64,000 nt of DNA from Pseudomonadota bacterium (GTDB taxonomy: Bacteria > Pseudomonadota > Gammaproteobacteria > Xanthomonadales > SZUA-36): the NCBI GenBank assembly GCA_015222805.1, contig JADFVZ010000125.1, positions 24,342 through 88,341 of the forward strand. Direction: 5' to 3'. Of the stretch, positions 4,929 to 30,510 are shown piece by piece (positions within the stretch are counted from its first letter, which is position 1; each line of letters opens with the position of its first letter). Below the pieces are notes generated by a model. The model ran no database searches and had not been told where the DNA came from. It worked only from the letters and a program-made list of their open reading frames with translations. Made by a program: the position numbers and the translations under genes.

Positions 4929-7900
4929 ATGAAACGAATTGATACAACACAGTGGCTTAACAAACTCGGATATGATCCGAGCAATGTTAGTTTGCCTGGA
5001 AGTGGTGTCGGACTGGATTCGCCCTACGCCCGAGAAATTAATCGATTACTTGATCCTGAAGCCATTTGTGCATCTGCTGTGGTTACTATGGATGAACACC
5101 CAGTTGTTTGTTTCATCGATAGTAATGGAAGAGGTGTCAAGAAAACGAAGTGGCTTGATAAGATCAGAAAAAAGATTTGGAATCAGAGTTTGGTTTCTTT
5201 AATTCTTGTTATCGACGATGATGAATTAACCGCTTTTCCCGTTAACAAGAAATCAAAGCCAGATGAAAAGTTGAAATTTGATTCAGCTGGCACAAGCAGC
5301 CAGTATTCAATGGCTGATATAAACACAGGTGAAATACAGAAACGACATCCTGATTGGTTTGACCCTGAAAACAATGTTGATCAGGTGCTTCTTTCCAATT
5401 TAAAACAATCCATCACTAAATTAAAGACCATGGGTGCAAGCGTTGATGATGCTCAATACCTCATGGGCCAATGCTTATTTGTTTCCTATCTCGAACACAG
5501 AGAAATAGTTAGTGACGAATACCGTAATCGAAGAGGTGTTGAGGGTCTTCACTCATTGATAAGCGCAAGAAATGGCAAAGGGTTGGAAAAATTATTTTTA
5601 TCTCTCAAAAAGAATTTCAATGGCGATTTCTTTGAGCTCAGAGAAAAAGGTCACTCTTATTGGACATCATTATCTGATGAAGTTTTTTCGCTCTTAGATG
5701 ACTTTTTGAACCGTGTGGACCTTAATTCTGGTCAATTATCTTTTTGGGGGTATGATTTTAGATATATTCCTGTTGAAATGATTTCTGGTATTTATGAGAC
5801 TTTTCTCGGAGATGATAAAGGTAATATTGGTGCCTACTACACGCCAAGGCATTTAGCCAACCTAACAATTGATCAAGCATTTGGTGAGAGTAAAGACATT
5901 ACTAAAGAAGTGGTGTTTGATGGAGCTTGCGGTTCTGGCATCTTATTAACTACAGCTTTTAGAAGAATAGTCTTAAGCTCAATGAGCAAAGGCAATGGTG
6001 ACCCATCTTTCAGAGAAAGAATTGATTTGTTGCTCAAATGTATTCGCGGAAGTGATATTAATCAATCGGCATGCAGGATAACGGTGTTTAGTTTGTATTT
6101 AGCACTTTTAGAGGACATACAACCTAAAGACATAGCTAGGCTGCAAGACGATGAAAAAATCAAACTCCCCAAATTGCTTGGTGAAATTATTGTTTGTGGC
6201 GAGAATGACGGTGATTTCTTTAATAAATCGCATAAGTTTATTACAGGTTCCAAAAACACTATCCTTGTCTCTAACCCACCTTGGTATGAAGCCAAAGGGT
6301 ATGAGAAAAATACAAGTTTCGAATTGTGGGCACAGTCAAATGAAAAAGAACTAGTCAGGCGACAAATTGCTTGCGCTTTTGCTCACAGATCATGTGATGC
6401 AGTTATTGAAAATGGGAGGGTTTGTTTAATACTTCCTGCTAGTATTTTAACAGCATCTACCAGTCAAGCATTTGTTTCACAGTTGCTCACAGAAATTGAA
6501 GTAGATCGAGTTATTAATTTCTCTGATATTAGGCGATTACTCTTTGCTAAGGCCATTCATCCTTGTGTGGTTATAAGTGGCAAAGTAAAATCCGGTTCTA
6601 ATTATGGAGTAGTTAAAAGTGATGAGTTCTGTGACTATTGGGTTCCTAAAGCGGATGTGAGTTTGGCTTTTGGCAGGCTTACCGTTCACAGCAGTGATCG
6701 TCACAGAATACTCACTCAAGATATATATTTTGACAATGAAATATTGCGCGTGTTTTTTTGGGGAAGCCAAAAAGACCACTCATTAATTTCTAAACTGAGA
6801 ATCAAAGGTCAAATAAATGACCTTGTTTCTCAAAAAGACTCCCGATGGACTATTTGTAAAGGTTTCCATCAAACTGATAGGTCAAAGGAACCATTACCCC
6901 CTGGGAAATTAAAGGCAATTCCATTCTTGGATTCTCGTAAGTTTCCAAAACAATCACCCATTTTAGACAGAGATATACTGGAAGAGTTTCCAGACTCCAT
7001 TGTCACTGTAGCTGATTATGGTTCAAAATCAGGTGCGGCATTTAGCGGTCCTCGGGTGTTATTTCCAGATGGAGCCACCAATAATTTTGAGGTAAAGGCT
7101 TTATTTACCAATATTGAGTTTTGTTTTAAACAAACAATTTCAGCAATAGTAGGACCTAGTGATGATAGTGATATATTACGATTCCTTACAATATACCTAA
7201 GATCTAAGTTGGCTAGCTATGTGCTATTCCATACTGCTTACTCATTAGCCAGTGAACGACCACACATTAAATTAATAGAAATAAGAGATTTGCCATTTGT
7301 ATTGCCAGAAGATCACTCTGATCCACAAAAAGCAAAAAAAATAGTCACTGAAGTTTCTAAAAAAGTAAAAGCGCTGAACAACGTAAACGTATTTGAATTT
7401 GAAAATAAATACAGAAAATTGAAATCTGAGTGTGAAAAATTAATTTTTGAATATTTCGGCTTAGATTATGCAGAACAAAGCATGGTCAATGATACATTTG
7501 AATATCTATTACCAAGTGTTCAACCCAATGCTTATAACAAAATAAAAACACCACTTTATTACCCAGTTTCTGAGAGTGATATTGACTCATACTCTCATGT
7601 TTTACTCCATGAGTTAAATGAATGGAGAGCAAAACTTGGAGGTAAAGGAAAAATAAAAATAGAAACTATTTATGATGATGCAACTCTTGCCTATACATTA
7701 GGCATAGTCAAGCTATCAATTTCCTCAACATCAACAATCTCTAGTTTCACAAATGATAATTCGGATGTGATGAGCATTCTTACTATTTTGAGAAACAATA
7801 ATGTGCTACCTATGCAAATCGCACATGGAAATTATCACCTGGGAAGTGATTTTTTAATTCACGCAGGAGAGCATATATATTTAATCAAACCACTTGTAAA

Positions 7901-7991
7901 ACGTTTATGGCTAAAAAACCAAGCTGTCCATGATGCTCAACGCATTGTTACATCAATCCAGACCAATCTGATGCCAGAGAATGCTAGATGA
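4929..7991 (+). CDS. N6-adenine DNA methyltransferase-like protein (type IIG/Eco57I-like)
   Basis: 1020 aa; motif I VFDGACGSGILL, motif IV VSNPPWYEA, preceded by IGAYYTPRHLANLTID. Confidence 0.85.
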   Translation: MKRIDTTQWLNKLGYDPSNVSLPGSGVGLDSPYAREINRLLDPEAICASAVVTMDEHPVVCFIDSNGRGVKKTKWLDKIRKKIWNQSLVSLILVIDDDELTAFPVNKKSKPDEKLKFDSAGTSSQYSMADINTGEIQKRHPDWFDPENNVDQVLLSNLKQSITKLKTMGASVDDAQYLMGQCLFVSYLEHREIVSDEYRNRRGVEGLHSLISARNGKGLEKLFLSLKKNFNGDFFELREKGHSYWTSLSDEVFSLLDDFLNRVDLNSGQLSFWGYDFRYIPVEMISGIYETFLGDDKGNIGAYYTPRHLANLTIDQAFGESKDITKEVVFDGACGSGILLTTAFRRIVLSSMSKGNGDPSFRERIDLLLKCIRGSDINQSACRITVFSLYLALLEDIQPKDIARLQDDEKIKLPKLLGEIIVCGENDGDFFNKSHKFITGSKNTILVSNPPWYEAKGYEKNTSFELWAQSNEKELVRRQIACAFAHRSCDAVIENGRVCLILPASILTASTSQAFVSQLLTEIEVDRVINFSDIRRLLFAKAIHPCVVISGKVKSGSNYGVVKSDEFCDYWVPKADVSLAFGRLTVHSSDRHRILTQDIYFDNEILRVFFWGSQKDHSLISKLRIKGQINDLVSQKDSRWTICKGFHQTDRSKEPLPPGKLKAIPFLDSRKFPKQSPILDRDILEEFPDSIVTVADYGSKSGAAFSGPRVLFPDGATNNFEVKALFTNIEFCFKQTISAIVGPSDDSDILRFLTIYLRSKLASYVLFHTAYSLASERPHIKLIEIRDLPFVLPEDHSDPQKAKKIVTEVSKKVKALNNVNVFEFENKYRKLKSECEKLIFEYFGLDYAEQSMVNDTFEYLLPSVQPNAYNKIKTPLYYPVSESDIDSYSHVLLHELNEWRAKLGGKGKIKIETIYDDATLAYTLGIVKLSISSTSTISSFTNDNSDVMSILTILRNNNVLPMQIAHGNYHLGSDFLIHAGEHIYLIKPLVKRLWLKNQAVHDAQRIVTSIQTNLMPENAR

Positions 7992-9087: not shown

Positions 9088-12000
9088 ATGCAGTTTCGTG
9101 CCAAGCAAATAGCCCCTCCAAAGGAGTGGGCAATCTTCGAGGATTTGTGCCACGCCCTATTCAAACAGGTATGGCAGGATCCGCTTGCGCAGAAGAACGG
9201 GCGGAGGGGGCAAGCACAGCACGGTGTCGATGTCTTCGGTTCACCAAACGATGACCTCCAGTTATACTTGGGCGTCCAGTGTAAGGGTAAAGACAGCAAC
9301 TACGGCAGCAAGGTCGTATGGTCGGAAGTGGTGGCGGAAATTGCTAAGGCGGAACAATTCTCTCCTAAACTGGACAAGTGGATATTCGCAACCACCGCTC
9401 CTGCGGATGCCAAACTACAAAAGGCTGCCCGGGAATTGTCCGTCGAGCGTAAGGCCAAAGGTCTATTTAGTGTCGATGTGCTGGCCTGGGAAGAAATCCA
9501 GGCCCTGATGGCTGGCGCGCCTGAAGTGATAACCGAGTTCTATCCTGAGCACGCCGACCACCTGCCGCAGGTGATCGAGGCATTGCGTGCCCTACCTCCG
9601 CTCGCAGAAAAAATCGCAAGCCTCGTTGAGAGGTTCAATGCGAAGCTACCTGAGCCTTCAAATCCGCACGGCCCCGCGCTTTGGGAAGTGGTGACGTTTG
9701 ATGGCGATCGCGGGCTAGGTCCTGCCTTAATGGGCTATTCGCTAGGGCCTTCTGACGCCACTGCGTGCCCGCGCTTGACCGAAGTCGGCACCATTCTATC
9801 GCAGCTGAAAATAGCTTATTCAGCGCGCCTTATTGGCGCGTCCGGAGCTGGAAAGTCGATTTGCTCATACCAAGCTGCGAAAGTGTTGGCGGCTAGGGGC
9901 TTCCAAGTACAGCGCCTGCTAGATCCTGAGGCCGACAATATCGCATTGGAGGCGGCATTACCCGGCAAGCGCCGTCTGTGTCTCATAGACGATGCTCACC
10001 TACTAAAACCTCATGTTCTTAGTAGAATAGAGGGTCAGGCTGATCCGGCTCTACTGGTCCTTACGACGCACAATGCTATTGAGGGCGTCAGCCATCGAGG
10101 TGCGATCACACTTGACCAGAAGCGTGCGGTAAAGACGATTGCAGCTGCTCTGCGAGCCAACTTGCCCAAGACCCTGGAGGCCGTGCGTCTCGCTAACGAC
10201 AATGTGGGTGAGCGCATGATGAACACCGATATCGGCGAACGCCTGGACCATGCGGAAAGCACTTCGGATCGTCCCTGGCAGTTCTGTTTCGTGCTTGGAG
10301 GTGGTTGGCGCCGATCAAAACAAGCAGCGGATTCAGCCCGTGCAGCTAATGCTGACCTCATCCTTGCGGCGGTTGCGATCCGGCAGCTGGCATCTCGCGA
10401 TGCGCGTGCGGTTCCAGGAGAGATTGTGGAAGTCTGTGCACGTGCCGGCATCGATGCCGGAATGGTCGATCAGGGATTGGAATGGCTGGGGAAGCAAAGG
10501 CTGATCGTGGGCGTGGCGGATTGTCGGGCTCCGCATCAGCGCTTCGCTACGGTCGTGCTCAAACGTATCCTAGAGGGGTAAGGCAAGGGTGCGCGCGAGA
10601 AGGTCGCCACAATGATAGAAGGCGTATTACGCGATCCGCAATTCCCGTATGCAGGTTTGCAAGTCCTTATACATGAACTCCGCTTCGGAAGTGGTAACTA
10701 CAGATGGACGCGCCTTCTCGGACAGCCCGGGGTTGAGGCTGTGATTGCGCGATGTTGGGCGGCCGAAGGTTCGGATCGCGGTTTTGCGGCACTCGCCCTT
10801 TCAGACCTGTGGGATTTCGCGGAGGGTGGGGCGACTGCCGTGGTGGGTCCAAATGTGTCCACACTGGCGAATTGGATTTCCAATCCCAGCGATGGCGCAT
10901 ACGGTTTCGGCCACATCTTGAACAATCTTGTTCAGCAGGATCAGAATGTTGCCGAGAGGGTCGTTGCAGCCACTGATCCGATCGCAATCGCGACAGCCTA
11001 TTCCAACGCCAACCCCGATACGGCATACGGTCTTGCCGATCTCTTGAGCAGCGTCGCCTATGTGAAGGTTGATGACTTCAACACCAAGGTTCGGACTGCT
11101 ATTGATCGGGACAAACTGCGCGAGCTCGCCAAGCACGAAGCCTTTCTTGAGGACGCCTTCATCTTCTCGAAATTCTGCGCTTCCGTAGTTTGGTTGGACG
11201 AGGATCTGGCGCTGGAAATGGCCGAACTTTTCGTGCCAACTGCGCAGCAAGTCCTAGCCAAAGACCCGGTGGAAGGATTTCATCAACTCAGCCGCGATTT
11301 CGCTTCGACCGTACTACGCGTGTTTGACGTGTTGCATGTGTATGTCGGGAAGCTGAAGCCGACTCGCCGTCAGTGGGTAATCGCGCGGCGCATGTGCGAG
11401 AAAATCGACCCCAAGCGGATCGCAGAACACATCTCGACGGTGCGCCCCCGGAATTTTCAGTCAGCAGGCTTCTTCCTTCATTTCCTCTGCCAGTCGGCAC
11501 CACGGAAATACGAAGCGGCCCTTTGCCAAGTCGATTGGAACAAGCTGGATTCGGTCATTGGCGATGATTGGGGGAATATGCCTCATGACACCGAGGTGCT
11601 CTTGGCCACCCTCTATTTGCGGCCATCGACGCGGCACCTTGTCCAAAAATTCATCTCCGACAGGGCCGACCGGATCGTGCATTTTCCACCGCGACTGATG
11701 CTAATGGTGCCGGAAGTTGGCCTCGCACATCTAGCCAAGGGCAACTCGCTTCGACTAGCCCAACACGGCCACTTGAGTTGGGACTTCGGCGGCATAGCCT
11801 TGGCCTTCATCGTAGATGCGCGACCCGAATTGGTTGAGCAGGCTGTCGGCCCCTTTGTTGATGAGATAGCGCGTGGGGTGACGAACTACAACCGAAACTC
11901 CACCGGCCAAGCAGAAGGTTTTGTTCGCGTGGTGATTGAGCATACGCCTGCCGTTTGGCACCAAATTTTAGCTAAACTTGATCCCGCTGTGGCTGAGAAA

Positions 12001-12204
12001 AATTTGGCTGAATGCCTCAGAGGAGACGTGGATCATCGGCGAACGGCAGCGGCCGTCATTGAGTCCGCAATGAGCTTGGATGGCCCCGTCAGCGGCATGG
12101 CTCGTCGTTTGCGGGCACGATTCCCAAATGCATCAACCGCGCCGACCGACACGCCGCGTTTCAGCAGACGGCGCGGGCGGGCGCGTCGGAAGCGCAAAGG
12201 ATAG
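9088..12204 (+). pseudogene. Restriction endonuclease-like/STAND NTPase interrupted by in-frame TAA at 10579-10581
   Basis: Mrr-like N-terminus (FEDLCHALF..QHGVDVFG..LGVQCKGKD), Walker A GASGAGKS, Walker B LCLIDDAHLL; ORFs 9088-10581 and 10612-12204 share one frame with no other stop between them. Confidence 0.7.
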
Positions 12205-13640: not shown

Positions 13641-13960
13641 ATGAATACTTATAAGCGTCATAGGTTTCCTCCAGATATCATTAGTTACTCAGTTTGGCTC
13701 TACTATCGATTTAATCTCAGTCACCGGTATATCGAGGATCTCCTGGCCGAGCGGGGAATCACTGTCAGCCATGAATCAATCAGACTGTGGTGCATCAAAT
13801 TCGGTGCAAGATATGCGAGACGCCTGAAGCGCCGACACAGAGGCTATGGCGACACATTCTACATCGATGAAGTCTTCATAAAAATTAGCGGTGAGCAACA
13901 CTACCTTTGGCGGGCAGTGGATCAGGATGGTGTGGTGGTAGCTGTGTATCTCCAAAGAAA
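13641..13960 (+). pseudogene. IS6-family transposase, truncated
   Basis: HRFPPDIISYSVWLYYRFNLSHRYIEDLLAERGITVSHESIRLWCIKFG...YIDEVFIKISGEQHYLWRAVDQDG, then sequence diverges. Confidence 0.85.
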
Positions 13961-14371
13961 GCGTTTAGTTCGGGTAGAGGGTTGTACCTGGGTTGTTAAA
14001 ATAGTGTTCTTTTAGAATGCTTTTAATATGTTGGTCGCTCGCTTTGTCTGTAAACGCTTTGAGTGTTTGACCATTTTTCCAGCCAACCGTGTAATCGTCT
14101 AAGGACTTAGGTAGGGTTGACAGCCATGCTTCGGCGGACGGATGGAATACGCCATTCGTCCAAATACTCCTCTATTTATAATACTTACCTCTTACACGGC
14201 TAGCTCAATTTTGTATAAAAATATTAAAATTAAAACCCATATAATCAAAAGGTTATATTTAGTAAAAGAGCTCAGCTTTGACCCAATGTCACAGCATATC
14301 TGTATGAACCGGTTTTTACGCCTCCATCACCTTCTATGTTGAATTGTACTTAAATTTATACCGGCAATTGC

Positions 14372-15834: not shown

Positions 15835-15881
15835 TGTCATTTTTGGTAATAGATGAGACTGAGTTGAAATAGATGAGACTG
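15835..15881 (+). repeat. Family B terminal repeat with two iterons
   Basis: TGTCATTTTTGGTAATAGATGAGACTG followed by GAAATAGATGAGACTG. Confidence 0.75.
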
Positions 15882-16260: not shown

Positions 16261-16287
16261 TGTCATTTATTGAAATAGATGAGACTA
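16261..16287 (+). repeat. Family B terminal repeat
   Basis: TGTCATTTATTGAAATAGATGAGACTA. Confidence 0.7.
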
Positions 16288-16347: not shown

Positions 16348-16374
16348 TGTCAATATCTGAAATAGATGAGACTG
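16348..16374 (+). repeat. Family B terminal repeat
   Basis: TGTCAATATCTGAAATAGATGAGACTG; the following ~65 bp resemble the sequence after 15881. Confidence 0.7.
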
Positions 16375-16652
16375 GGTTAGTGATGAAGAGCTAAATCAGC
16401 AGCTTTAGGTGAGAGAAGCTGGTTTGTGGTGACAGTAAATCTATAAGGAACGTAATAGGAGGCTGGTTACAGCCAATGCAGTAACTAAAGTGAATAGTGA
16501 AATGAAAACAAAACCAAAGGCTGTTGTGCAGGAATTCCTGTAGAGCAATAGTCCAAGGTATGTAGCAAAAAACATGAAAACTCTGGCAGGGTTGAAGCTC
16601 CCACTGAATGACAAATCTTCCTTGCATCAGAACTTTCCAAAGGAGGCGACTA

Positions 16653-18011
16653 ATGAAATGCGTAATATTTATACCGGGAATCATGGGCTCAGAGTTACGG
16701 CTCAAAAACTCCAACAAGAAGGTATGGCCGCCCAGTATTTTTGAGCTCACAATCGGTGGGTATGGTCGGATCAACGAACTGATGGACCCGGCTTTGGTGG
16801 CGACCAGGCCCATTGTTGCGATCGGGGGTTTCTATTCCGTCTATCGTTGCATACTCGATGATATCAAAACCTGTGGCTACACCAACTCTGGCGCGAGCGG
16901 GCGGAAATTTATTTCTTTTCCCTACGACTGGCGCCTCTCAAATTTGGAAACCGCACAGAAACTAGCCACCCTCCTGGACTCCGAAGATGCTTTCGATGAA
17001 CTGATTCTGATTGGCCACTCAATGGGTGGACTGGTGCTTCGCCTGCTTCTTGAAAGTGGTGAGTTTGATCACCGCCCCTGGTTCAATTCAATTACCCGGC
17101 TGATTACATATGGTACGCCGCACAATGGGGCTGCCGCTGCCCTGGAGCAGGTTACCGTTGGCGATAAAACCCTGGGCGTCAGTGCCGCAAACATCAAAAT
17201 GCTGGCCTCTGATCCAAGATACCCATCGGCCTATCAGTTAGTACCGCCGGCAGATACAGCGCTGACCATCAAGACCGCTGGTAGCGGTCAGACACCCGAA
17301 GCCATCGATTCATTCGACCCCGCAATTATCAGTGCCTTCGGTCTCAAGCAGAGTAATATTGATGCTGCGCGCGCCCAATGGGCTGCTTTGAATATAGATG
17401 ACAAACCTGCCCAAGTCGATTATTTTTCCTTCGTCGGTTCTGCGTTAAAAACTAAGTATCGGAACGACTGGAACGGAATCCAGCTCAGCACACAGGAACG
17501 CAAAGACAGTGGCGATGGCACGGTGCCGATCAGCAGCGCTATTAATATTAGGATCCCACACGCCTTTTCGCTCAAAAAGCACGCATCAATTTTTGAGGAT
17601 CGAACAACGCGTTTTGCGCTTTATCGAATGCTCGACGCACCTTCCGGCGTGAAGCCAATGTCCGCCGATACGGCTGCTGAGGTAGGTGACCCCACAGCAC
17701 TGGGGCTGAGTGTCAATAAGGAAAGCTACCAACCTCAGGACATTATCGAGGTGACGGTTTCCTACGTAGCGCCACAAACGGACCCGGGTGCAAACTTCGA
17801 AATATTTAAACTGGATGTTGAGTCTGATGAAGGTGATAGGCTGGAGTCTGTGAGTGAACCGATCAAAGTCACGTTTGAAGGGGCTGAAGTCGATAGCTTC
17901 ACTTTCTCTATCAAAATCGATCTTGAACCGGGCGTGTACGAGCTACGCACTAACAGGAAGGTAGATGACCCGGGAAGGACCCTTTTCATAGTATCAAGTG
18001 TTGAGGAGTAG
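16653..18011 (+). CDS. LCAT/lipase-like alpha/beta hydrolase, no signal peptide evident
   Basis: FIPGIMGSEL, FPYDWRLS, LIGHSMGGLVLR nucleophile elbow; AGGAGG SD before ATG 16653; beta-rich C-terminal extension. Confidence 0.8.
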   Translation: MKCVIFIPGIMGSELRLKNSNKKVWPPSIFELTIGGYGRINELMDPALVATRPIVAIGGFYSVYRCILDDIKTCGYTNSGASGRKFISFPYDWRLSNLETAQKLATLLDSEDAFDELILIGHSMGGLVLRLLLESGEFDHRPWFNSITRLITYGTPHNGAAAALEQVTVGDKTLGVSAANIKMLASDPRYPSAYQLVPPADTALTIKTAGSGQTPEAIDSFDPAIISAFGLKQSNIDAARAQWAALNIDDKPAQVDYFSFVGSALKTKYRNDWNGIQLSTQERKDSGDGTVPISSAINIRIPHAFSLKKHASIFEDRTTRFALYRMLDAPSGVKPMSADTAAEVGDPTALGLSVNKESYQPQDIIEVTVSYVAPQTDPGANFEIFKLDVESDEGDRLESVSEPIKVTFEGAEVDSFTFSIKIDLEPGVYELRTNRKVDDPGRTLFIVSSVEE

Positions 18012-18015
18012 TGAA

Positions 18016-19137
18016 ATGCCCAGCCCTACGGATTTGATCAATGGCCTGTTTATGTGGGCCCTGAAATATGGCATTTTAACGGATGATGCAATGCGCGAAG
18101 CTTCGATGATTTCTGGCGATGCGGATTTGATTCCATTCGATGGTTCACACGCAGAATTTTTCAAGACCCGTAAGATCGTAAAGATCATTTCACGCAGCCG
18201 TGGCTCCACCTCGGTGATCTCTTTGTTCGCGAGGTTACCCATCGCGAGGACCAAGGCTACCAAATTAAAAGAGTTGTTTGATGACCGATATCACGAAGAG
18301 GGTTTTTCACTCGAGATTGATGTCGCCAAACCATTCAAGATTGATCAGAACATCAAGAGTACTATTAACCCGATTTACTACCACGATAGGCGCATTGCCT
18401 GTGGTTCGTCAGTTGGGTTGGGCAATCAACGCAATGCCGGCACTCTCACTGCATTGGGCAAAACGTCCAAAGAGGTTTTGATTGGTATTTCCTGCAACCA
18501 TGTAACGGGTGGTTGCAACACAGCCCGACCTGGCACGCCTATCGTCGTGCCGGGTATCCAGGATGTCAGTCCCGAAAACCCCGAAATATCTGTGATAGGT
18601 GTGCATGATTTTACCGGCCCCATGAGCCAGGGGCTTCCACAAGTGTTCGATATCTCGAAGAACTGCGATATTGCTTTTTTTCAGATCGATGATAAACAAA
18701 GTCAGTTGCTCAGTTCCATGCAGGGCAGCGATACTAATGCTTACGATACACCGACCAAATTTGCAAATGTAAAAGAAGGTCTTCTGGTGCAAAAGTGGGG
18801 AAGAACCTCTGGCCACACACAAGGCGAGGTCAAGAGAATTGTCAGCGACCCGGAATCAATCGAATACAAAGTAACCAGCTATTTCGGACCCACGAGTTCG
18901 CAAACATTCAACGGTACGGTCTACTTCAATGATTTTTTTGAAGTTGAGTCTATTGGTACTGACCCATTTTCAGTGAGTGGAGACTCTGGTTCTTTGGTGG
19001 TAACCGGGGGCAAAGGCAAGAAAATAAAAGTTGTCGGGATAATGATCGGCGGCAATGACTCTAAAAGCTACGTCTTGCCTCTAAAGCACATACTGAAAGT
19101 TCTCAAGGTACGACTAATTGGCAGCCATAATATCTAG
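18016..19137 (+). CDS. Trypsin-like/NAL1-like serine protease, no signal peptide evident
   Basis: His in ISCNHVTGG, Asp in NCDIAFFQID, Ser in SGDSGSLVV; starts 5 bp after the lipase stop. Confidence 0.75.
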   Translation: MPSPTDLINGLFMWALKYGILTDDAMREASMISGDADLIPFDGSHAEFFKTRKIVKIISRSRGSTSVISLFARLPIARTKATKLKELFDDRYHEEGFSLEIDVAKPFKIDQNIKSTINPIYYHDRRIACGSSVGLGNQRNAGTLTALGKTSKEVLIGISCNHVTGGCNTARPGTPIVVPGIQDVSPENPEISVIGVHDFTGPMSQGLPQVFDISKNCDIAFFQIDDKQSQLLSSMQGSDTNAYDTPTKFANVKEGLLVQKWGRTSGHTQGEVKRIVSDPESIEYKVTSYFGPTSSQTFNGTVYFNDFFEVESIGTDPFSVSGDSGSLVVTGGKGKKIKVVGIMIGGNDSKSYVLPLKHILKVLKVRLIGSHNI

Positions 19138-19300: not shown

Positions 19301-20287
19301 CTATGAATTAAATGGGGTCGAATCAATCTTTATTGCCTCGAAGGTATGCCCATCTATGGTCTCTCCAAATATTCGATAAGCTCCTAAGCCACCCAGTGGA
19401 AAATTGAATTCACGAGAGACACCGAGCTGATCAAACCAAAAACCATCATTATTTTCAAAAGTACAAGTTGGCCCTCGTAATTGACCTTCCACCTCAACCA
19501 ATTTACAAGTAATAGTACCTATTATCAGTACTTCTGGGGGGGGGAAGTATCTTGCAACCGCATAAGTCACTTCACGGCCTGTCGGTGTCTCTCGAATATT
19601 TTTTTTCGTCAGCCTTAGCACTTCAGAGTAAAAAGCCCACTGATTACCAATAAGTAGAATATTGGTTACTGCTTCTCCATTGACATGGTATACAAAGGTC
19701 CATAGTCCATCAAGATTTGGTAACAAATACTCAGTTCTGTGTGGAAAGTCTGCAGTTGCTCCATGACCAAAAATAAAAGGTGTAATATTCTGCCAGGGGC
19801 CACCATCAAAACTAACACTGGCTAAGTTTTTGTGTCGAAACTTCATTTTCACACGACCATAGTCAGTAATGTCAAAACCTGTAACCTCACAATTAAAACA
19901 ATTGCTGTTTGAGAAGTGATTTAAGGTGGCATCGATCGTCCACATCACACCCACCTCTTCTGAAGGTGTTAGCGCAGCAGTAAATGTCAACCAGATTGCA
20001 GTACCCTCTTCATCGTAGCCATAGTAAATACCAGACACTCTGCCGTTTTGGGTATCAAAATTAAATCCCTGAGCGGTTTGGTCTTTGTTGTACCACACTC
20101 CGTTGGTTGGCTCAGTTCTCTGTGTGTATTGTTCACAATTGACGCAGGGGACCTCAACACCCGTCTGTGCTAAAGCAACAGAGGTGGGCACACCCAATCC
20201 AAATAACATCAATATGATAATTATCATCTTCAATTTCTTTTTCATTTGCATGTCCACCTTATTCAATTGCTTACTAACTATGGGCAA
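19301..20287 (-). CDS. Secreted protein of unknown function
   Basis: Signal-peptide-like N-terminus; GVWYNKDQTAQGFNFDTQNGRVSGIYYGYDEEGTAIWLTFTA pattern. Confidence 0.6.
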   Translation of the reverse strand: MPIVSKQLNKVDMQMKKKLKMIIIILMLFGLGVPTSVALAQTGVEVPCVNCEQYTQRTEPTNGVWYNKDQTAQGFNFDTQNGRVSGIYYGYDEEGTAIWLTFTAALTPSEEVGVMWTIDATLNHFSNSNCFNCEVTGFDITDYGRVKMKFRHKNLASVSFDGGPWQNITPFIFGHGATADFPHRTEYLLPNLDGLWTFVYHVNGEAVTNILLIGNQWAFYSEVLRLTKKNIRETPTGREVTYAVARYFPPPEVLIIGTITCKLVEVEGQLRGPTCTFENNDGFWFDQLGVSREFNFPLGGLGAYRIFGETIDGHTFEAIKIDSTPFNS

Positions 20288-22014
20288 ATATTATAGTAAT
20301 TTGCTGTTACTTGGGTACTATAAGCACCACAGCCTGCAGCATTACAAGCCGTTGCTTTGAGGTACCAGGTGCTACCCGGATTCACATTTACAGTTGTGTA
20401 CGTATTAGTGCCACTATACACAAGTGTAGGACTCGTAAAGCTCGATGATGTTGACATATACAACTTGTAATCTGTCGCGCTTGTTTGTGCGGTCCAGTTA
20501 ACGTCATTATAGCCATAACAAGGATCATACGCGACAGCAATTGGGTTAGGGGCTGCTGGTGGAGGCAGCGGGTCGTCATTATAGCTTGATACCGCAGTCA
20601 TTGCCGTCTCATACAACCATTTCTTCATGTTTCTACCATTTGGACCGTACGCACCCAACTGTACGCCGTTATAGGTCAATTGTGGGCTGGTAAAATAGTC
20701 AATTCGTTCACAGTTAGAAGGCAAACCATAAAAATAACAAGGAGCCGTATCATAAGATCCCATTATTGTCTGCCACGGCACAGTCGTCTCAGTCATTCCA
20801 CGCGCAAATACTGTGGTGCCATTGGTTGTGTTAGCCGTATCAGAATGAGAACCGCCGAGCATATGACCAATTTCATGTAAAGCCGTTATATCGGCTATGG
20901 CATAACCAGCTGCTGACAAGCCAAATGGGCTAGTCGAGCTATAAAGATATGCAATACCTCCCACACGTCCAGGTTGTCCTGGGAAACAGCCACTTGCGGA
21001 ATTATCACCAACCAATAAGAACGCAAGGTCGGCACCGGCAAGGTCCATTTCAGTGTCAATGTTTGCAAAAACCCCTACTTTTGCAGCCATATTATTTACA
21101 AGTATTGGTGTTTTGCACAACCCCGAAAATGTCGTAGAGACACCAGTAACGCCTACCGATGTCACCCACTTTGATGTAGGAACCAAGCTGCGGGCAAGCG
21201 CTGCATTCATCTCTGTAACAGTTTGACTAACTATTAAGCTTGGATTACTTACATCGGATGCATAATAAAACAAAATATCAACTCGGCCTGTCCCTTGCCC
21301 AGCACTTTGAGCTTGTACTGTGCTTTTTCCAGATTTACTAGCTTCTGTAGTCTGCATAGAAACCTCTGATGCTTGGTCACTGACAATCACATCTTCGCCA
21401 GTGTCGGCATTCATCATGGATTTATCGAGCTTGCTGATAATAAAACGAGATGAAGTATCATCTGTAGCTGTAATTAGATAGATATGCTTACCGTAATTAA
21501 TTTTCCCAATCACACCATTTGCGGATAGTGATAACGAAAAAAATGAATGCTCAGAACCTACAACATGGCCGCTATAGCTAACAACATCTTCATTTTTTAT
21601 TGGATTTTGTACTATTTCAACCGCTAAAAACACTGGATCAGTTATTCCAGGCAAATGAATCAAGATATCTTGGCCAGACATTTGAGCATTCTTCATATTA
21701 ACAATATCAAGGCCCTGATTTTTATTGTTGCTATTTATTGCATCCTCTTCGTTCACTCCTTTAATGATACTCAGAGCATCAACATTTATCGTTATATACT
21801 GAGAGTCCAGTAAAGCTTCTTCAAATCCTACACCAACCTGTTTGTATTCTGAGGTGTCTAATTTCTGCCCGCTAAGAGCAATCAGTGATGGTTGAGTATC
21901 TAGCTTTACTTTACTGGCTGCTAAGGCTGGATTAATAATGAGAAGACTAGTCAATAGCATCGAAGAAAGAATAGTGCGATTTAGAAATTGTCGATGTTTA
22001 CTTATTGTTTTCAT
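20278..22014 (-). CDS. Secreted M12-type zinc metallopeptidase with C-terminal FN3-like domain
   Basis: ITALHEIGHMLGGSHSD (HExxHxxGxxH); signal peptide; VNWTAQTSATDYKLYMSTSSSFTSPTLVYSGTNTYTTVNVNPGSTWYLKATA. Confidence 0.85.
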   Translation of the reverse strand: MKTISKHRQFLNRTILSSMLLTSLLIINPALAASKVKLDTQPSLIALSGQKLDTSEYKQVGVGFEEALLDSQYITINVDALSIIKGVNEEDAINSNNKNQGLDIVNMKNAQMSGQDILIHLPGITDPVFLAVEIVQNPIKNEDVVSYSGHVVGSEHSFFSLSLSANGVIGKINYGKHIYLITATDDTSSRFIISKLDKSMMNADTGEDVIVSDQASEVSMQTTEASKSGKSTVQAQSAGQGTGRVDILFYYASDVSNPSLIVSQTVTEMNAALARSLVPTSKWVTSVGVTGVSTTFSGLCKTPILVNNMAAKVGVFANIDTEMDLAGADLAFLLVGDNSASGCFPGQPGRVGGIAYLYSSTSPFGLSAAGYAIADITALHEIGHMLGGSHSDTANTTNGTTVFARGMTETTVPWQTIMGSYDTAPCYFYGLPSNCERIDYFTSPQLTYNGVQLGAYGPNGRNMKKWLYETAMTAVSSYNDDPLPPPAAPNPIAVAYDPCYGYNDVNWTAQTSATDYKLYMSTSSSFTSPTLVYSGTNTYTTVNVNPGSTWYLKATACNAAGCGAYSTQVTANYYNICP

Positions 22015-22809: not shown

Positions 22810-23768
22810 TTATGCCTGGGTAATCACAGTGGCTGTGGATGGCCCGCACTTCTCCGCCCAGCGTATAAAGCGCTGCGGCGACCAGGCACTGTATTTTTGA
22901 TGGGACTTGGGCATGTGTTCACGTACTGTAGTGTGGCCACCTTTTGTAAAAGACCGCAGGTGGCTTGCCACCCGCTTGTTCCTGTAGAAGCACTCGACGG
23001 TGTTATCGGTAATACGCAGACCCAGTTGCTTTTTGATGAGCTGATACGGCACCGAGTAATAGTGCCGTTCGAACTCCACGTGATAATCAATATGTACCCG
23101 CACCTTTTTTCACTCGGCGTAGGTGTACACATTGGCTGGTCCAGGGAAGCAAACATCTCCTGGCGTGAACCCGGCAGCTTTTTGAAGGGTCGATTGTTAA
23201 GCCGGATCAATAGCTCCCGGATCACCTGATTGAGTTCTGCCAATGAGAAAAAGGTGCGATTGCGCAGTGCCCCCAGTACCGCAATAAATATCTGCGCTTC
23301 ACGTATCTCACCGGTATATTGATCAACCACTGGCATCGTCTGGCCGGCATAGTCAGCGAACAGTTCACCGGCGCGGTGATCCTGGCGCATCACCACATCC
23401 AGCTTGCCGCGCCATTGGCGATACATGTCACAGAACCAACTGTATTGATAACCACACGGGTGTTGCTCCAGGTATTCCTGCCACAACACTTCACCCACAA
23501 AGCCCACCGATACACCGTTTGGTAAACCAATCCGCCACTGGCTGTCGGGATGTGCATCCAATACCTGTGCCCGTTGAAACCGGGCGGGTTGTACACCCGG
23601 TAAAACACCCTTTTTAATCAGTATATTCTTGCTGGCATACAAGGTCTGTACAGGGAAGCCCTCTGTTGCTGCATACTCAGTCATACTTTTACCGGAGGCT
23701 TCGCAGGCCCGGATATGTTCTAGCCAATAACGCTGACGTGTCGTCAGCGTGGGAATTATATTTTGCAT
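22810..23768 (-). pseudogene. Chimeric IS66 TnpA::IS21 IstA relic with internal frameshift
   Basis: N-part TLTTRQRYWLEHIRACEASGKSMTEYAATEGF...WRIGLPNGVSVGF is IS66 TnpA-like; continues in frame into IstA-like EYLEQHPCGYQYSWFCDMYRQW...AGELFADYAGQTMPVVD; IstA C-part resumes in another frame (22810-23103). Confidence 0.75.
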
Positions 23769-23861
23769 CGCTCGTTACTCCTGATTACCAGGTGTATAGC
23801 GTGACGGGTAATCGTTTAGGAAAACAGGGTGGGGTTTACTTTGCGCTTACAATTGATGAGA

Positions 23862-23940
23862 CTGGCCGAACTAATAATCAGTCACTTATGCAATAAATAT
23901 TGGTAATAGATGAGACTGAATGACGGTAATAGATGCGACT
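23862..23940 (+). repeat. Internal family B iterons
   Basis: aattgatgagactgg, ggtaatagatgagactga, ggtaatagatgcgactgc; the outer TGTCA terminus is missing. Confidence 0.6.
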
Positions 23941-24099
23941 GCGTTACAAACTTTGAAAAGAGCCTGAAGATTTAGTGATCAAGCAAACCCGAAAGATTGG
24001 GCCAACTCGCCGGAGCGTATCTGGGGTCTATGTTTTTCGTGGAAAAGTGGGGATATCATTCGAGTCTACTGTTGATTTGCATCCAAATATATACCATTT

Positions 24100-24352: not shown

Positions 24353-27300
24353 TCAACTTTGTAAGCTTGAAGAAAAGTAGCTCGGAAGTTCCAACAAAAC
24401 ATCATTAACAACCTGAATATTCTGTTCCAGGATCTTAGTACTAAAACCTTCTTGTGCAACACCGTTTTTAACCAATGCACTAGATAAAGTTTTACAAACT
24501 TCCCTATCCACAAATCCTTTGGAATAAAGCCACAATTCCAAACCACTTGATAGTCCGAGTTTGAGGCGTGTTTGCAATACCCTTACTCTATCAACAATTT
24601 TGTCTGTAAAGCCTTGCCCCTCTAATATATCCGCCAAAGCGCCAACATATAACATCGAGTCGAAAGATAGAGCACCATTTGCAAAATCAATCACATGATC
24701 CATCTTTATTCTACGTGCTTGGGTCTTGGCTTGATAATGAGCCTCTTTGTCTATTAACAGGCTTTGTAATTCGATATAACTGTCACCGGAAATCCATTTT
24801 TGGGCGAAATCCAGCAGAACTTTTTGTGGCTGAATCTTATTCATCAACACATTGTTATTTAGCAGGACTATTAGGGGCCAACACACTTGCAATAAGTCTT
24901 CCGGTGAGTCTGACAACTCCAAAATGAGAGCATTCTCACTGACCCACTCTTCTATCACCTGCAGTTGCTCAACGCCTAGAAGCGCTTTGCCATAATAGAC
25001 AAATTTTTCAGGGTCTAGACTTAAAACTCTTCTCGAGATCAAGTTAAAAGCATCAATAAAGATTAACTTTTCAGCTTCGTTCGCTAAGTAATACGCTAGA
25101 GTATTGCTAGCCAGTTCGACAAAGTATGATTGATCCACATCGGGGTTATCTTTGAGGTGCGACAGGAAATAGCTTTCAATACTTTGTATTAAGCTCTCCT
25201 TATAATCCATCTGCTCAAGCAATGAATCGATATCAATCTCTGCCTCTGTTGCAAGATCAATGCATTGTTCTCGGTAGTCTTTGGGGTTAGTTATAAATGC
25301 AATAACATCAAGGTGGATTTCTTCAAAATCAAACGGGGTAATTAGCTCTTTTAAGCTACTCAGACAGTCTTCCGTGTTCGTGAAATCGAGGAGGTGAATG
25401 GCTCTTTTCCACTTCCTCTGCCAATAACGGTGTCGCCGCAAATCATAGATTTCAGAATCTGTGAAAATAACACTCCCTTCAGTGTGATAACCCGCCCGCC
25501 CGACTCTACCGATTAGATTGTGGAAATCCCTGGCTGATATTTTCTGTCCTGCTTGAAAAGTACTGGATACGATTAAGTACTTTATCGGCAAATTCACGCC
25601 CTGAGCCAAAGTGGAAGTACAAACAACAAGGCAGGCCTTATTGTGTTCCATTGCCCACTCAGCAGAAACTCGTAGCCCATTCGGTATGTTTGCACTGTGA
25701 GGCAATATGCCCAACCTGATTGATTCTGAAAGGATATATTGACCTCCAAAATGCAAACTCGACAGATAGGAAATCTTGTCAAGCTCCTGTTGGTCGCTAC
25801 TCGCATTTGGAGGTGAAAGTTGAAGCCCTCTACTATAGTAATCGACAAGCAATTCACTTATTGTCGTCACCGTACTCTTAACGCCACAAAAAATTGCTAC
25901 GGGCCCTTGGTGACACAACCTGACACCTAAATAGGCTGCCATACTGGAAGCATTATTTCTTTCAGGGAATAGGCGATCCTTCCGCTCTGATCCTCTCGTG
26001 CCAAGGTTAATTTGTTCGATGACCCTCGGAACAAAAAAATCTCTATCAGCCTCTAATTCCTGATCTATGTAAACTAATCGGCCCAGGCTAGTTAGCCAAC
26101 TTACGAATGCTACACTTCTTACCGTTGGCAAGCAGTGTATGCCCTGCACCTCAACGCCAGCCTCACCATTAAGCCAATCCCCAATGGATTCTGCATTTGA
26201 CATCACGGCTGAAATCAGGATCTTCTGCGTTTCTTCACCCACACTTTCCTTGAGAGATGCCAGCAATAACTCATAGGTAACTCCCCTTTTACCAGTATCA
26301 AATTGATGCCCCTCATCAAAGATCAGCAAACCAATGGCATCCGCCAACTTCGGTTCGTGGCGCAGTAGATAAACCAGTTTCTCGGGGGTAGAAACTAGTA
26401 CTGACTTACGGTGCCGCGTGTCCTGCTCGGACTCACCCAATAGAAACCTTATGAAGTATTCTTCATCATCACTAACCAATGTAACATCTTGCAATTCATT
26501 AATATTGACATCTTCGCCATCAAACGCGAGAGCGAATGATGAAGAAATCTCCCTACACAATGCTCTGAATGGCGCTATAACCACGGCCAATGTTGCGCGA
26601 CCCGAGATAAAAGCACTGCGAATAATCAGTTCTGTCGATTTTGTTTTTCCTGTACTGGTCGGCATTTGTACAACCGCCGAAGTTCCGGACAATATTCCTT
26701 TTTCCCCCAACAGCTTTTGAGCCGGCCAGAACTCTTTGATGAAACCAGGTTTTTCTAATACGGAAAGCCAGTTACTGATGGATAAATCTGTATATTGAGG
26801 AAGACAGTTTATCGAGGAGTTTGCAATTTTCTTAAGGCTTAATGACACAATGACATCAATGAATAACAACTCCCTGTCATTCCCACATTCATAAGTATTT
26901 TTTCTTATAGAATGAGCAATCTCAAGAAATTGCGAGAATTGATATGAACGGTCAAAGTACCCTCTAAAAATTTCAATGAATGATTCGATGTCATTGACTA
27001 ATGGGCTGTCCTCAAGTCTGTAGAACTGATGTTCCATGTCGGATTTCAATAACCAAACCAAAACACCTTCAAGATAATTTGGTGTTAGCTCATCCATTTC
27101 ATATGGTAATTCTTTTGAAAGAACTAACGAGCTACCCGGCATATCCGCCAAATAGTATGCAGATGAACCAACTAGCCTTAAGTACTGCGAAAGGTTATCC
27201 GCAACATGAGATTGATCAAGTGCATCGAAATACTGGCTAACAGAAATCAGCTGGCTTTTTAGCTCTAAGTAACGCTCACCATGCATATTAGCAATTCGGG

Positions 27301-27466
27301 ACTCAATGGCAGCTAGTTCTCCCAAAATCCCAATGGTTGCTATGAGCAGGTTTTTTGGGTCTTGCACTAAAGTGATATGGTGACTTTCGTCGATACCAAA
27401 CTCATACATCTTTGCTTTTGATTTGGTTATCGCCATTAACTTCTTGGAGTTAGCTTCAAGCCTCAT
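24353..27466 (-). CDS. hamB: Hachiman helicase HamB
   Basis: QMPTSTGKTKSTELI (motif I), LLIFDEGHQFD (II), CTSTLAQGVNLP (V), HNLIGRVGRAGY (VI); overlaps hamA by 11 bp. Confidence 0.88.
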   Translation of the reverse strand: MRLEANSKKLMAITKSKAKMYEFGIDESHHITLVQDPKNLLIATIGILGELAAIESRIANMHGERYLELKSQLISVSQYFDALDQSHVADNLSQYLRLVGSSAYYLADMPGSSLVLSKELPYEMDELTPNYLEGVLVWLLKSDMEHQFYRLEDSPLVNDIESFIEIFRGYFDRSYQFSQFLEIAHSIRKNTYECGNDRELLFIDVIVSLSLKKIANSSINCLPQYTDLSISNWLSVLEKPGFIKEFWPAQKLLGEKGILSGTSAVVQMPTSTGKTKSTELIIRSAFISGRATLAVVIAPFRALCREISSSFALAFDGEDVNINELQDVTLVSDDEEYFIRFLLGESEQDTRHRKSVLVSTPEKLVYLLRHEPKLADAIGLLIFDEGHQFDTGKRGVTYELLLASLKESVGEETQKILISAVMSNAESIGDWLNGEAGVEVQGIHCLPTVRSVAFVSWLTSLGRLVYIDQELEADRDFFVPRVIEQINLGTRGSERKDRLFPERNNASSMAAYLGVRLCHQGPVAIFCGVKSTVTTISELLVDYYSRGLQLSPPNASSDQQELDKISYLSSLHFGGQYILSESIRLGILPHSANIPNGLRVSAEWAMEHNKACLVVCTSTLAQGVNLPIKYLIVSSTFQAGQKISARDFHNLIGRVGRAGYHTEGSVIFTDSEIYDLRRHRYWQRKWKRAIHLLDFTNTEDCLSSLKELITPFDFEEIHLDVIAFITNPKDYREQCIDLATEAEIDIDSLLEQMDYKESLIQSIESYFLSHLKDNPDVDQSYFVELASNTLAYYLANEAEKLIFIDAFNLISRRVLSLDPEKFVYYGKALLGVEQLQVIEEWVSENALILELSDSPEDLLQVCWPLIVLLNNNVLMNKIQPQKVLLDFAQKWISGDSYIELQSLLIDKEAHYQAKTQARRIKMDHVIDFANGALSFDSMLYVGALADILEGQGFTDKIVDRVRVLQTRLKLGLSSGLELWLYSKGFVDREVCKTLSSALVKNGVAQEGFSTKILEQNIQVVNDVLLELPSYFSSSLQS

Positions 27467-28298
27467 TTGCAGCCCTCTCATAAAGAGCATGAACCAAAGG
27501 CATTAGTTGCTCCCCTGTAATGACAATCAACTCAAGGGCGCCAGGTGCAACATGACTATTTGAATCAGATTCAGATAAGGTTTCGGGGCAAAAAGAAGTC
27601 TTTGTTATAACCGCAGCGGCACCATAGGAACGTTTATAAGGTTTATCTGGAGTTCTCTGAAACCGGCTGACAATGTCAAACCCAGTGTCATCGCCTTGGT
27701 CGAAAAGTCGTTGTTTTATGCCGTTCAGTGATTCTGCCAACCGAATCTCGTCTTTCGAAGAGTCTGTGATTGCGAGTTGCAAAACATTAGATTTGCTATT
27801 CTCAGACAACTTCGCTTTAACCTCGTAGATTATCAACTCATCATCTGTGCGCGGTTCGTTGTTGAGTTGTTTGAATCCTATTATATCTGATCCCTTTGAT
27901 GACTCGTTTCCAATGATTTTTCTGTCATATCGAGTTCTTGGCACATAATAATTACGTAGAAATTCAAGGTAATCTGCAATGAGGATTTCAGCAAAGTCAC
28001 CAGACCTTATACTCGGCCCAGGTTTCACAGAAGCACTGGGAAATTTCAATTCCAGTAGATACTCTGCACTTGTCATTCCATCTGGCTTTAAAGAAACCAG
28101 ATCGGCATCAAGGCAATAGTGGTTTCGAAAATGCCTTGCCCATGCGCTCATGATCCTTCCGTCATTCGCATCATGGCAAAACTCGAATACAGGAACATCT
28201 TTGCCGCATGATGTCCTTATGGTGCTTCCTGTTTCTTGCAGCCAAGCAAGATGTTCATTTGTCCATGGCATAGGATTGTTTCCAAGTTGTAGTGGCAT
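27456..28298 (-). CDS. hamA: Hachiman effector HamA (DUF1837)
   Basis: RSGDFAEILIADYLEFL..KGSDIIGF..DELIIYEVKAKLS (PD-(D/E)XK-like core); directly upstream of the helicase. Confidence 0.88.
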   Translation of the reverse strand: MPLQLGNNPMPWTNEHLAWLQETGSTIRTSCGKDVPVFEFCHDANDGRIMSAWARHFRNHYCLDADLVSLKPDGMTSAEYLLELKFPSASVKPGPSIRSGDFAEILIADYLEFLRNYYVPRTRYDRKIIGNESSKGSDIIGFKQLNNEPRTDDELIIYEVKAKLSENSKSNVLQLAITDSSKDEIRLAESLNGIKQRLFDQGDDTGFDIVSRFQRTPDKPYKRSYGAAAVITKTSFCPETLSESDSNSHVAPGALELIVITGEQLMPLVHALYERAANEA

Positions 28299-28921: not shown

Positions 28922-28948
28922 CAGTCTCATCTATTTCCAAAAATGACA
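28922..28948 (-). repeat. Family B terminal repeat, inverted
   Basis: Reverse complement TGTCATTTTTGGAAATAGATGAGACTG; one mismatch to 15835-15861. Confidence 0.75.
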
Positions 28949-29158: not shown

Positions 29159-29184
29159 CTCTCTGTGGTACTTACCACAGAGAG
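29159..29184. repeat. Perfect 12-bp-arm palindrome
   Basis: CTCTCTGTGGTA-CT-TACCACAGAGAG. Confidence 0.85.
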
Positions 29185-29192
29185 TATACAAT

Positions 29193-29244
29193 TTTTCAAC
29201 ACCTTTATTGAACGCCTCGATCACTATCGGGTTTTTTATTGCTT
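29193..29244. repeat. Right copy of ~52-bp inverted repeat flanking the island
   Basis: Inverted relative to 2109-2161. Confidence 0.8.
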
Positions 29245-29388: not shown

Positions 29389-30510
29389 TTAACTCCGGTC
29401 TTCAATTGAGTTAACCGTGCGATCATCCGGCCCTGTGTAGTCGGCCGTCGGGCGGATTATGCGGTTATTGGCACGCTGTTCAAAATCGTGCGCGGTCCAG
29501 CCAGTAATCCGTGACATCACGAATATCGGGGTAAACAGTCGGGTTGGAATACCCAGGAAATGATAGGCTGATGCATGGAAGAAGTCGGCATTGGCAAACA
29601 TGCCCTTCTCTTCTTTCATCACCCGTTCAACAGTTTCTGATACCGAGTAGAGAACTGTGTCACTAATTTCTTCAGCCAGGCGTTTCGACCAGCCCTTGAT
29701 AATCGCATTGCGCGGATCGCGTTTTTTGTACACCGCGTGTCCAAAACCCATGATTAATTCACGCGCCACCAGTTTACGTTTGATTTCTGTTTCAGCATGC
29801 TCAGCAGAATCCAGGGTTTCAATCAGGGCCATGGCTTCTTCATTGGCACCACCGTGGAGCGGACCGCGTAATGCACCGATAGAGGCAGTTACACAGGAGA
29901 ATAAATCTGACAATGTGGATGCGACCACCCTACCGGTGAAGGTAGAGGCATTAAATTCATGCTCTGCATATAATATTAATGAAACATCCATCACCCGCGC
30001 ATGCAGTTCGGATGGTTTTTCACCGTGTAACAGATGCAGGAAATGCCCACCGATAGAATCGTCATCGGTCTGGGTTTCTATTCTGATACCATCATGTGAA
30101 TAACGATACCAGTAGCAAATAATCGAGGGGAACGCAGCCATTAAGCGTTCGGCCACCTGCTGCTGGTTACTGAAATCGCCTTCGGGTTCGATATTGCCGA
30201 GGAAGGAACAGCCGGTGCGCATCACATCCATGGGATGGGTATCTGCCGGAATGCGCTCAAGTACATCGCACAATGCCTGCGGCAGTCCGCGCTGGCGGAT
30301 GCTGGCCGCCTTAAATTCATCCAGCTGCTGCTGGTTGGGCAGTTCGCCATGCCAGACCAGGTAAGCCGTTTCATAAAACGTGGCGTTTTCTGCCAGGTCG
30401 TCAACAGAGTATCCCCGGTAACGCAGGCTGTTGCCTTCAGCGCCAACGGTACAAATGCTGGTTTGACCAGCAGACTGGCCGCGCAGGCCGGCTTGTGGAT
30501 TGTCACCCAT
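29389..30510 (-). CDS. prpC: 2-methylcitrate synthase
   Basis: Citrate synthase family (GPLHGGANEEAM, MGFGHAVYKKRDPRN); next to prpB. Confidence 0.9.
   Translation of the reverse strand: MGDNPQAGLRGQSAGQTSICTVGAEGNSLRYRGYSVDDLAENATFYETAYLVWHGELPNQQQLDEFKAASIRQRGLPQALCDVLERIPADTHPMDVMRTGCSFLGNIEPEGDFSNQQQVAERLMAAFPSIICYWYRYSHDGIRIETQTDDDSIGGHFLHLLHGEKPSELHARVMDVSLILYAEHEFNASTFTGRVVASTLSDLFSCVTASIGALRGPLHGGANEEAMALIETLDSAEHAETEIKRKLVARELIMGFGHAVYKKRDPRNAIIKGWSKRLAEEISDTVLYSVSETVERVMKEEKGMFANADFFHASAYHFLGIPTRLFTPIFVMSRITGWTAHDFEQRANNRIIRPTADYTGPDDRTVNSIEDRS

Follow-up and report, generated by a model that had tools for sequence, protein, structure and literature searches.

Protease-linked effectors in bacterial conflict systems

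The pairing of an alpha/beta-hydrolase with a caspase has been reported, on computational grounds, as a constant feature of the MoxR-vWA (VMAP) ternary conflict systems (Kaur et al. 2020, PMC7159879). Nuclease-protease pairs have been described in the Hachiman, AVAST, Lamassu and DRT systems (Tuck et al. 2025, PMC12799240), and in the gated Hachiman and AVAST nucleases the trypsin-like partner activates the effector (PMC12799240). In CARD-NLR systems, phospholipases replace gasdermin as alternative effectors (PMC13236601).

Here, we analyse two adjacent genes, for a lipase and a serine protease, in a stretch of 64,000 nucleotides (the window) from a gammaproteobacterial assembly of 2.9 Mb in 138 contigs (GCA_015222805.1, contig JADFVZ010000125.1). 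The original prediction, made from the letters of the window, was of a candidate abortive-infection module in which the protease might activate or restrain a membrane-attacking lipase. The pairing of a lipase with a protease is not wholly new, since alpha/beta-hydrolase and caspase pairs had already been predicted (PMC7159879). What is new is the NAL1-like partner and the lack of a conserved linked sensor gene or NTPase.

The lipase and the protease

The lipase gene (16653..18011, + strand) encodes 452 aa and is preceded by the ribosome-binding site AAGGAGG (16640..16646, +), while the protease gene (18016..19137, +) encodes 373 aa. Both reading frames are open and intact and lie 4 bp apart, as originally noted. 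The catalytic motifs named at that time (GHSMGG in the lipase; NH, CD and GDSGS in the protease) are present as described, and both triads are conserved in relatives.

The lipase matches Pfam LCAT above the curated threshold (4e-14, 52.9 bits, cut-off 21). The catalytic core spans residues ~1–330, and an additional beta-sandwich is found at the C-terminus (residues ~350–448). The triad residues S123 (17019-17021), D288 (17514-17516) and H310 (17580-17582) are kept in every alignment row covering these positions; H122 and S123 are scored as "nearly invariant" because one truncated row lacks both. The best Foldseek matches of the lipase model are the LPLA2 structures 4x90-4x97, the T6SS lipase Tle4, and LCAT (E 1e-7). 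The protein is classified, by profile and predicted fold, as an LCAT/lysosomal-PLA2-type alpha/beta hydrolase, with predicted phospholipase/acyltransferase activity.

The protease consists of an N-terminal alpha/beta domain (residues 1-103) and a trypsin-like protease domain (residues ~120-373). The motifs N161-H162, C217-D218 and GDSGS supply the triad H162 (18499-18501), D218 (18667-18669) and S324 (18985-18987), which is invariant across 12 aligned homologues. The match to Pfam Nal1_C (2.4e-5, 24.1 bits) is slightly below the 26.1-bit cut-off, and the top 27 Foldseek matches of the model are all rice NAL1. On the basis of the model, the protease is assigned to the NAL1-like proteins, with the predicted NAL1 fold and a His-Asp-Ser triad. 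NAL1-type proteases are known from plant architecture.

The AlphaFold2 models of the lipase and the protease were built on 12-row alignments and are moderate (mean pLDDT 74 and 75), with low TM-scores (~0.4) that support the fold class and not the fine detail. Three low-confidence loops lie near the lipase active site (residues 155-172, 203-217 and 262-309). These could be a lid or a propeptide, and may equally be explained by the thin alignment.

Conservation of the pair

When 84,980 species genomes were searched using the alignment of the protease, 11 relatives of the protease were found. The lipase gene is directly upstream on the same strand in all 11 loci, with a spacing of -11 to +32 bp where measurable; in one of these (L070) the lipase frame is broken, and another (L064) ends at a contig edge. 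The neighbourhood search proposed with the original prediction thus bears out the co-occurrence of the two genes, and a chance neighbourhood is ruled out. In a sample of the class, strong lipase and protease matches fall in the identical 5 of 369 genomes, three of them from one genus. The pairwise distances within the two families are correlated (r = 0.94, Mantel p = 0.0002), which partly reflects shared ancestry.

The hosts of the pair are Arenicella and other Gammaproteobacteria, an Acidimicrobiia MAG, a Planctomycetaceae MAG and Methylobacterium sp. Leaf104, with binning errors possible in principle for the MAGs. The spread is patchy, covering the window, two other gammaproteobacterial families, the Planctomycete, the Acidimicrobiia MAG and Methylobacterium. 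No conserved third gene accompanies the pair across the lineages examined. As had been noted for the window proteins, signal peptides are not evident: by hydropathy, none of 24 aligned lipase and protease homologues has a hydrophobic N-terminus or a signal-peptide-like or transmembrane stretch. In all relatives found, the lipase and the protease form a genuine conserved two-gene unit, predicted to be cytosolic. Beyond this clade, broad searches of the class and phylum returned NAL1-like proteases that are distant and often secreted or placed differently.

A phage-borne origin of the pair was rejected. No relative of the protease was found in IMG/VR, and the lipase matches there are distant prophage genes (L074-L076). 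Further lipase matches in phage records are spurious, being DNA polymerases (E 4e-4). On the prophage-like contigs L074, L075 and L076 (6968-10194), an ~870-aa LCAT-like protein has a small TM-like protein after it, probably located in the membrane, in a slot that seems to vary, with a weak LmuA match only.

Relatives of the lipase and their partner genes

The lipase has relatives beside several kinds of partner. The L141 genome, which is alphaproteobacterium-like and belongs to the same phylum, encodes a nearly full-length relative (32% identity over 419 aa), with a caspase-VMAP-C gene and a MoxR-like AAA gene coming after it. On plasmids, relatives are found directly upstream of CHAT proteins (L153, L154, L157), Trypsin_2 proteases (L152, L155) and NACHT/NPHP3_N-like NTPases (L151, L156), and in L150 a CHAT gene lies upstream of the relative, separated from it by one gene. 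Two Rhizobium relatives (L016/L017) are followed by a HEXXH protein, which matches M4 weakly, and by an MBL protein. In other Gammaproteobacteria, fusions of ~1850 aa with the order LCAT-DUF7379-CHAT-TPR-S are found, one of which adjoins caspase and TIR genes. Plasmid-borne relatives are also fused to trypsin (L019) or to CHAT (L020). In L019, the trypsin half has matches to proteins elsewhere annotated as DNA/RNA non-specific endonucleases, which suggests that effectors may have been exchanged over one protease type. The Rhizobium sp. 007 plasmid (L017, 8001-15568) carries an LCAT-like lipase, HEXXH and MBL proteins, an S1/P1 nuclease, a trypsin and a DNA/RNA non-specific endonuclease, many lytic enzymes within a single gene run.

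In the lipase tree, the NAL1-, caspase-VMAP- and HEXXH/MBL-linked lipases and one CHAT-linked lipase group together with support of 93/89, which is under the strict threshold and comes with several long branches. Because partners are mixed within this one group, the cytosolic lipases to which the window protein belongs appear to have exchanged protease partners. The Trypsin_2-paired lipases, secreted ones included, form a separate supported clade (99/97), and the two pairs of this sister clade that were examined (L142, L144) carry signal peptides. The possibility that homologues are secreted housekeeping enzymes, which had been named as one of two outcomes that would speak against the original prediction, thus holds for the sister clade but is ruled out for the pair clade, where 0 of 24 proteins have a signal peptide. 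Taken together, these gene arrangements show that the combination of lipase and protease recurs among predicted conflict systems.

The island in the window

The pair is located in an island of ~27 kb between rho (840-2096) and a citrate-synthase-family (prpC-like) gene at 29389. The island contains a type IIG restriction-modification enzyme (4929..7991, +; PADLOC 3e-268), a WYL regulator, a HicB-like/NikA-like gene, IS fragments and the Hachiman genes HamB (24353-27490, -; PADLOC E=0) and HamA (27456-28298, -; PADLOC 8e-107). Both Hachiman genes are separate from the pair, HamA being an ordinary separate gene. The defence island of the original prediction therefore stands for the window, but the description does not extend to the pair in the Arenicella clade or in the Planctomycete.

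Transposon-like ends had also been predicted around the genes, and this is broadly right. A 26-nt motif, TGTCANTTNTNGNAATAGATGAGACT, occurs in four copies, three of them exact. It is absent elsewhere in the 2.9 Mb genome, and none is expected from shuffles of the window. Exact copies are found at 15835-15860 (+) and, just upstream of the pair, at 16261-16286 (+, left-type end), the latter followed by a copy with two mismatches at 16348-16373 (+, left-type end). The third exact copy is inverted and located beyond Hachiman (28923..28948, -), so that the copies at 16261 and 28923-28948 bracket the pair and Hachiman over 12.7 kb. An IS21-type transposase remnant with broken frames (22810..23768, -; Mu-transpos_C_2 2e-16) lies between them, and a further IS-transposase fragment is found at 13641-14015. 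The motif is presumably that of IS21-type ends. With the transposase remnant, the copies suggest that an IS21-like-ended unit carried Hachiman, with or without the pair. No target-site duplications were seen by eye beside the repeats, and for this reason no single transposon is claimed. Shorter relatives of the motif are present at 23851-23941.

Other features of the island were recorded. The two borders of the island coincide exactly with a 40-nt inverted repeat (83%, visibly extendable), located beside rho (2135-2174) and beside the prpC-like gene (29180-29219), which could represent island ends or related terminators. A two-gene unit at 9088-12204 encodes a 497-aa protein that weakly matches Mrr_cat and nSTAND and a 530-aa protein with no matches; its GC content is 0.47-0.56 against 0.35-0.36 just before, and it is a possible further defence gene. 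Right after the pair, on the opposite strand, is a secreted reprolysin-like metalloprotease with an fn3-like end (20278-22014, -), followed by a second protein that is probably secreted (19301-20287, -).

Proposed mechanism and alternatives

We propose that the pair is a two-protein cytosolic module in which the protease frees a membrane-attacking lipase after a trigger, a tentative reading that we put a little short of an even chance. The lipase, as an effector of the phospholipase type with an LCAT/LPLA2 fold, would be kept inactive or off membranes, and the NAL1-type protease, made from the same transcript, would probably be in complex with it. Upon phage infection or another cell-damage signal, the protease would liberate the lipase by limited proteolysis, and the freed lipase would hydrolyse the phospholipids of its own cell, leading to growth stop or death. 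Since no conserved sensor gene is linked to the pair, sensing would fall to the N-terminal domain of the protease, to the beta-sandwich of the lipase or to a factor encoded elsewhere; of these, we infer the protease domain or the unlinked factor. The computed support consists of the tight gene coupling, the co-inheritance, the folds, the intact triads, the cytosolic location and the kinship of the lipase with a family found in predicted conflict systems. Activation of the lipase by the protease, rather than restraint, is proposed by analogy with the gated Hachiman and AVAST nucleases (PMC12799240) and with the phospholipases of CARD-NLR systems (PMC13236601), and membrane phospholipid is the presumed substrate.

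The neighbourhoods of the pair in other genomes make a role in defence plausible. They were judged by eye from mechanical ORFs with selected neighbours scanned, and no defence enrichment is claimed. In Methylobacterium, a class II Argonaute (pAgo 1e-212) is 1.5 kb away, with an integrase-like gene further off. A DpdJ-like helicase is found near the pair in one gammaproteobacterial MAG, and a P4-type integrase is 2.3 kb from the pair in another. With Hachiman and restriction-modification in the window, pAgo in Methylobacterium and the DpdJ-like helicase, the pair has defence neighbours in separate lineages. Against this reading stand the missing linked sensor gene, the Arenicella synteny, the Planctomycete neighbours, the lack of a PADLOC match, the lack of viral protease relatives in IMG/VR and the signal peptides of the sister clade.

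Some of these points would be expected if the protease switched an intracellular phospholipase for membrane remodelling or lipid turnover, as a housekeeping or stress module, with the window copy merely located in an island. In the Arenicella clade (L021, L022, L063, L064, L068), the pair is single-copy and in fixed chromosomal synteny with genes for an ABC transporter and for SixA-like and TraB-like proteins, with no known defence gene in the neighbourhoods read, and the neighbours in the Planctomycete look metabolic. In the Arenicella group, genes for CHAT, ECF sigma-like and anti-sigma-like proteins form a cluster that precedes the pair by ~4-5 kb (L021 37-2241, L022 29-2348), and this fits a stress module as well. 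However, the patchiness across phyla (5/369 genomes of the class), the mobile elements and defence genes around the pair in hosts other than Arenicella, and the lipase kin within conflict-system loci argue against the housekeeping role, which we consider unlikely.

The protease could instead degrade the lipase to restrain it, as in a toxin-antitoxin system, so that loss or inhibition of the protease would free the lipase. The genes are coupled strictly 1:1, the putative toxin precedes its regulator, and there is translational coupling, all of which is consistent with such restraint. On the other hand, the trypsin-like partner activates its effector in the characterised precedent (PMC12799240), and a degradative antitoxin would have no need of lipases fused to CHAT or trypsin, which leaves restraint quite improbable beside activation. 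The signal peptides of the lipase-Trypsin_2 sister clade and the appearance of the T6SS lipase Tle4 among the fold matches could point to lytic enzymes that are secreted or injected, but with a signal peptide in 0 of 24 proteins of the pair clade and no secretion or immunity gene seen adjoining the pair, an outward-aimed effector pair is very improbable.

A more specific form of the protease-freed lipase, which we consider doubtful, would be a minimal conflict system with no linked sensor gene, in which the NAL1-type protease, with its N-terminal domain as the sensor, would both detect the threat and set a phospholipase free, as the lipase counterpart of protease-activated gasdermins. If true, the membrane-lipase branch of bacterial protease-effector systems would be workable with two proteins and no NTPase sensor, offering a compact and tractable case in which to study the proteolytic control of a lipase, and extending NAL1-type proteases to bacterial conflict and cell-death control. 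The partner survey, in which a single lipase family is found next to NAL1, trypsin, CHAT, caspase-VMAP and NACHT-like proteins, may also serve as a guide to undescribed systems.

Comparison with known systems

The pair had not been recognised as a named system in the original prediction. No PADLOC 2.0.0 family matches the lipase or the protease up to E = 1, which speaks against a known named defence system, and no described lipase-trypsin anti-phage pair was found in a literature search. The VMAP ternary systems share with the window pair a neighbouring protease gene and a homologous lipase (L141), but the protease of the window is NAL1-like and trypsin-type instead of a caspase, and caspase, VMAP-C, MoxR ATPase and vWA genes were not seen around the window pair or around L063-L073.

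In the nuclease-protease pairs, as in the window, the effector hydrolase is immediately upstream of a trypsin-type protease, and Hachiman is itself present in the window island. The effector of those pairs is an MBL nuclease, whereas here it is a lipase, and their protease is fused to HamA, Avs or LmuA, whereas the window protease is standalone. The CARD-NLR and bacterial gasdermin systems have a protease-controlled membrane-attacking effector, as proposed for the window pair, which differs from them in that no CARD, NLR-like ATPase or gasdermin adjoins it. The LCAT-DUF7379-CHAT-TPR-S fusions (L083, L085, L086, L088, L091) likewise tie an LCAT-like domain to a protease, but this is a CHAT (caspase-like) protease within a single polypeptide, and the lipase domain falls in a separate clade of the tree. 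Finally, the window protease shares its fold and triad with the rice NAL1 family at ~17% identity, and it differs from rice NAL1 in being the standalone bacterial partner of a lipase.
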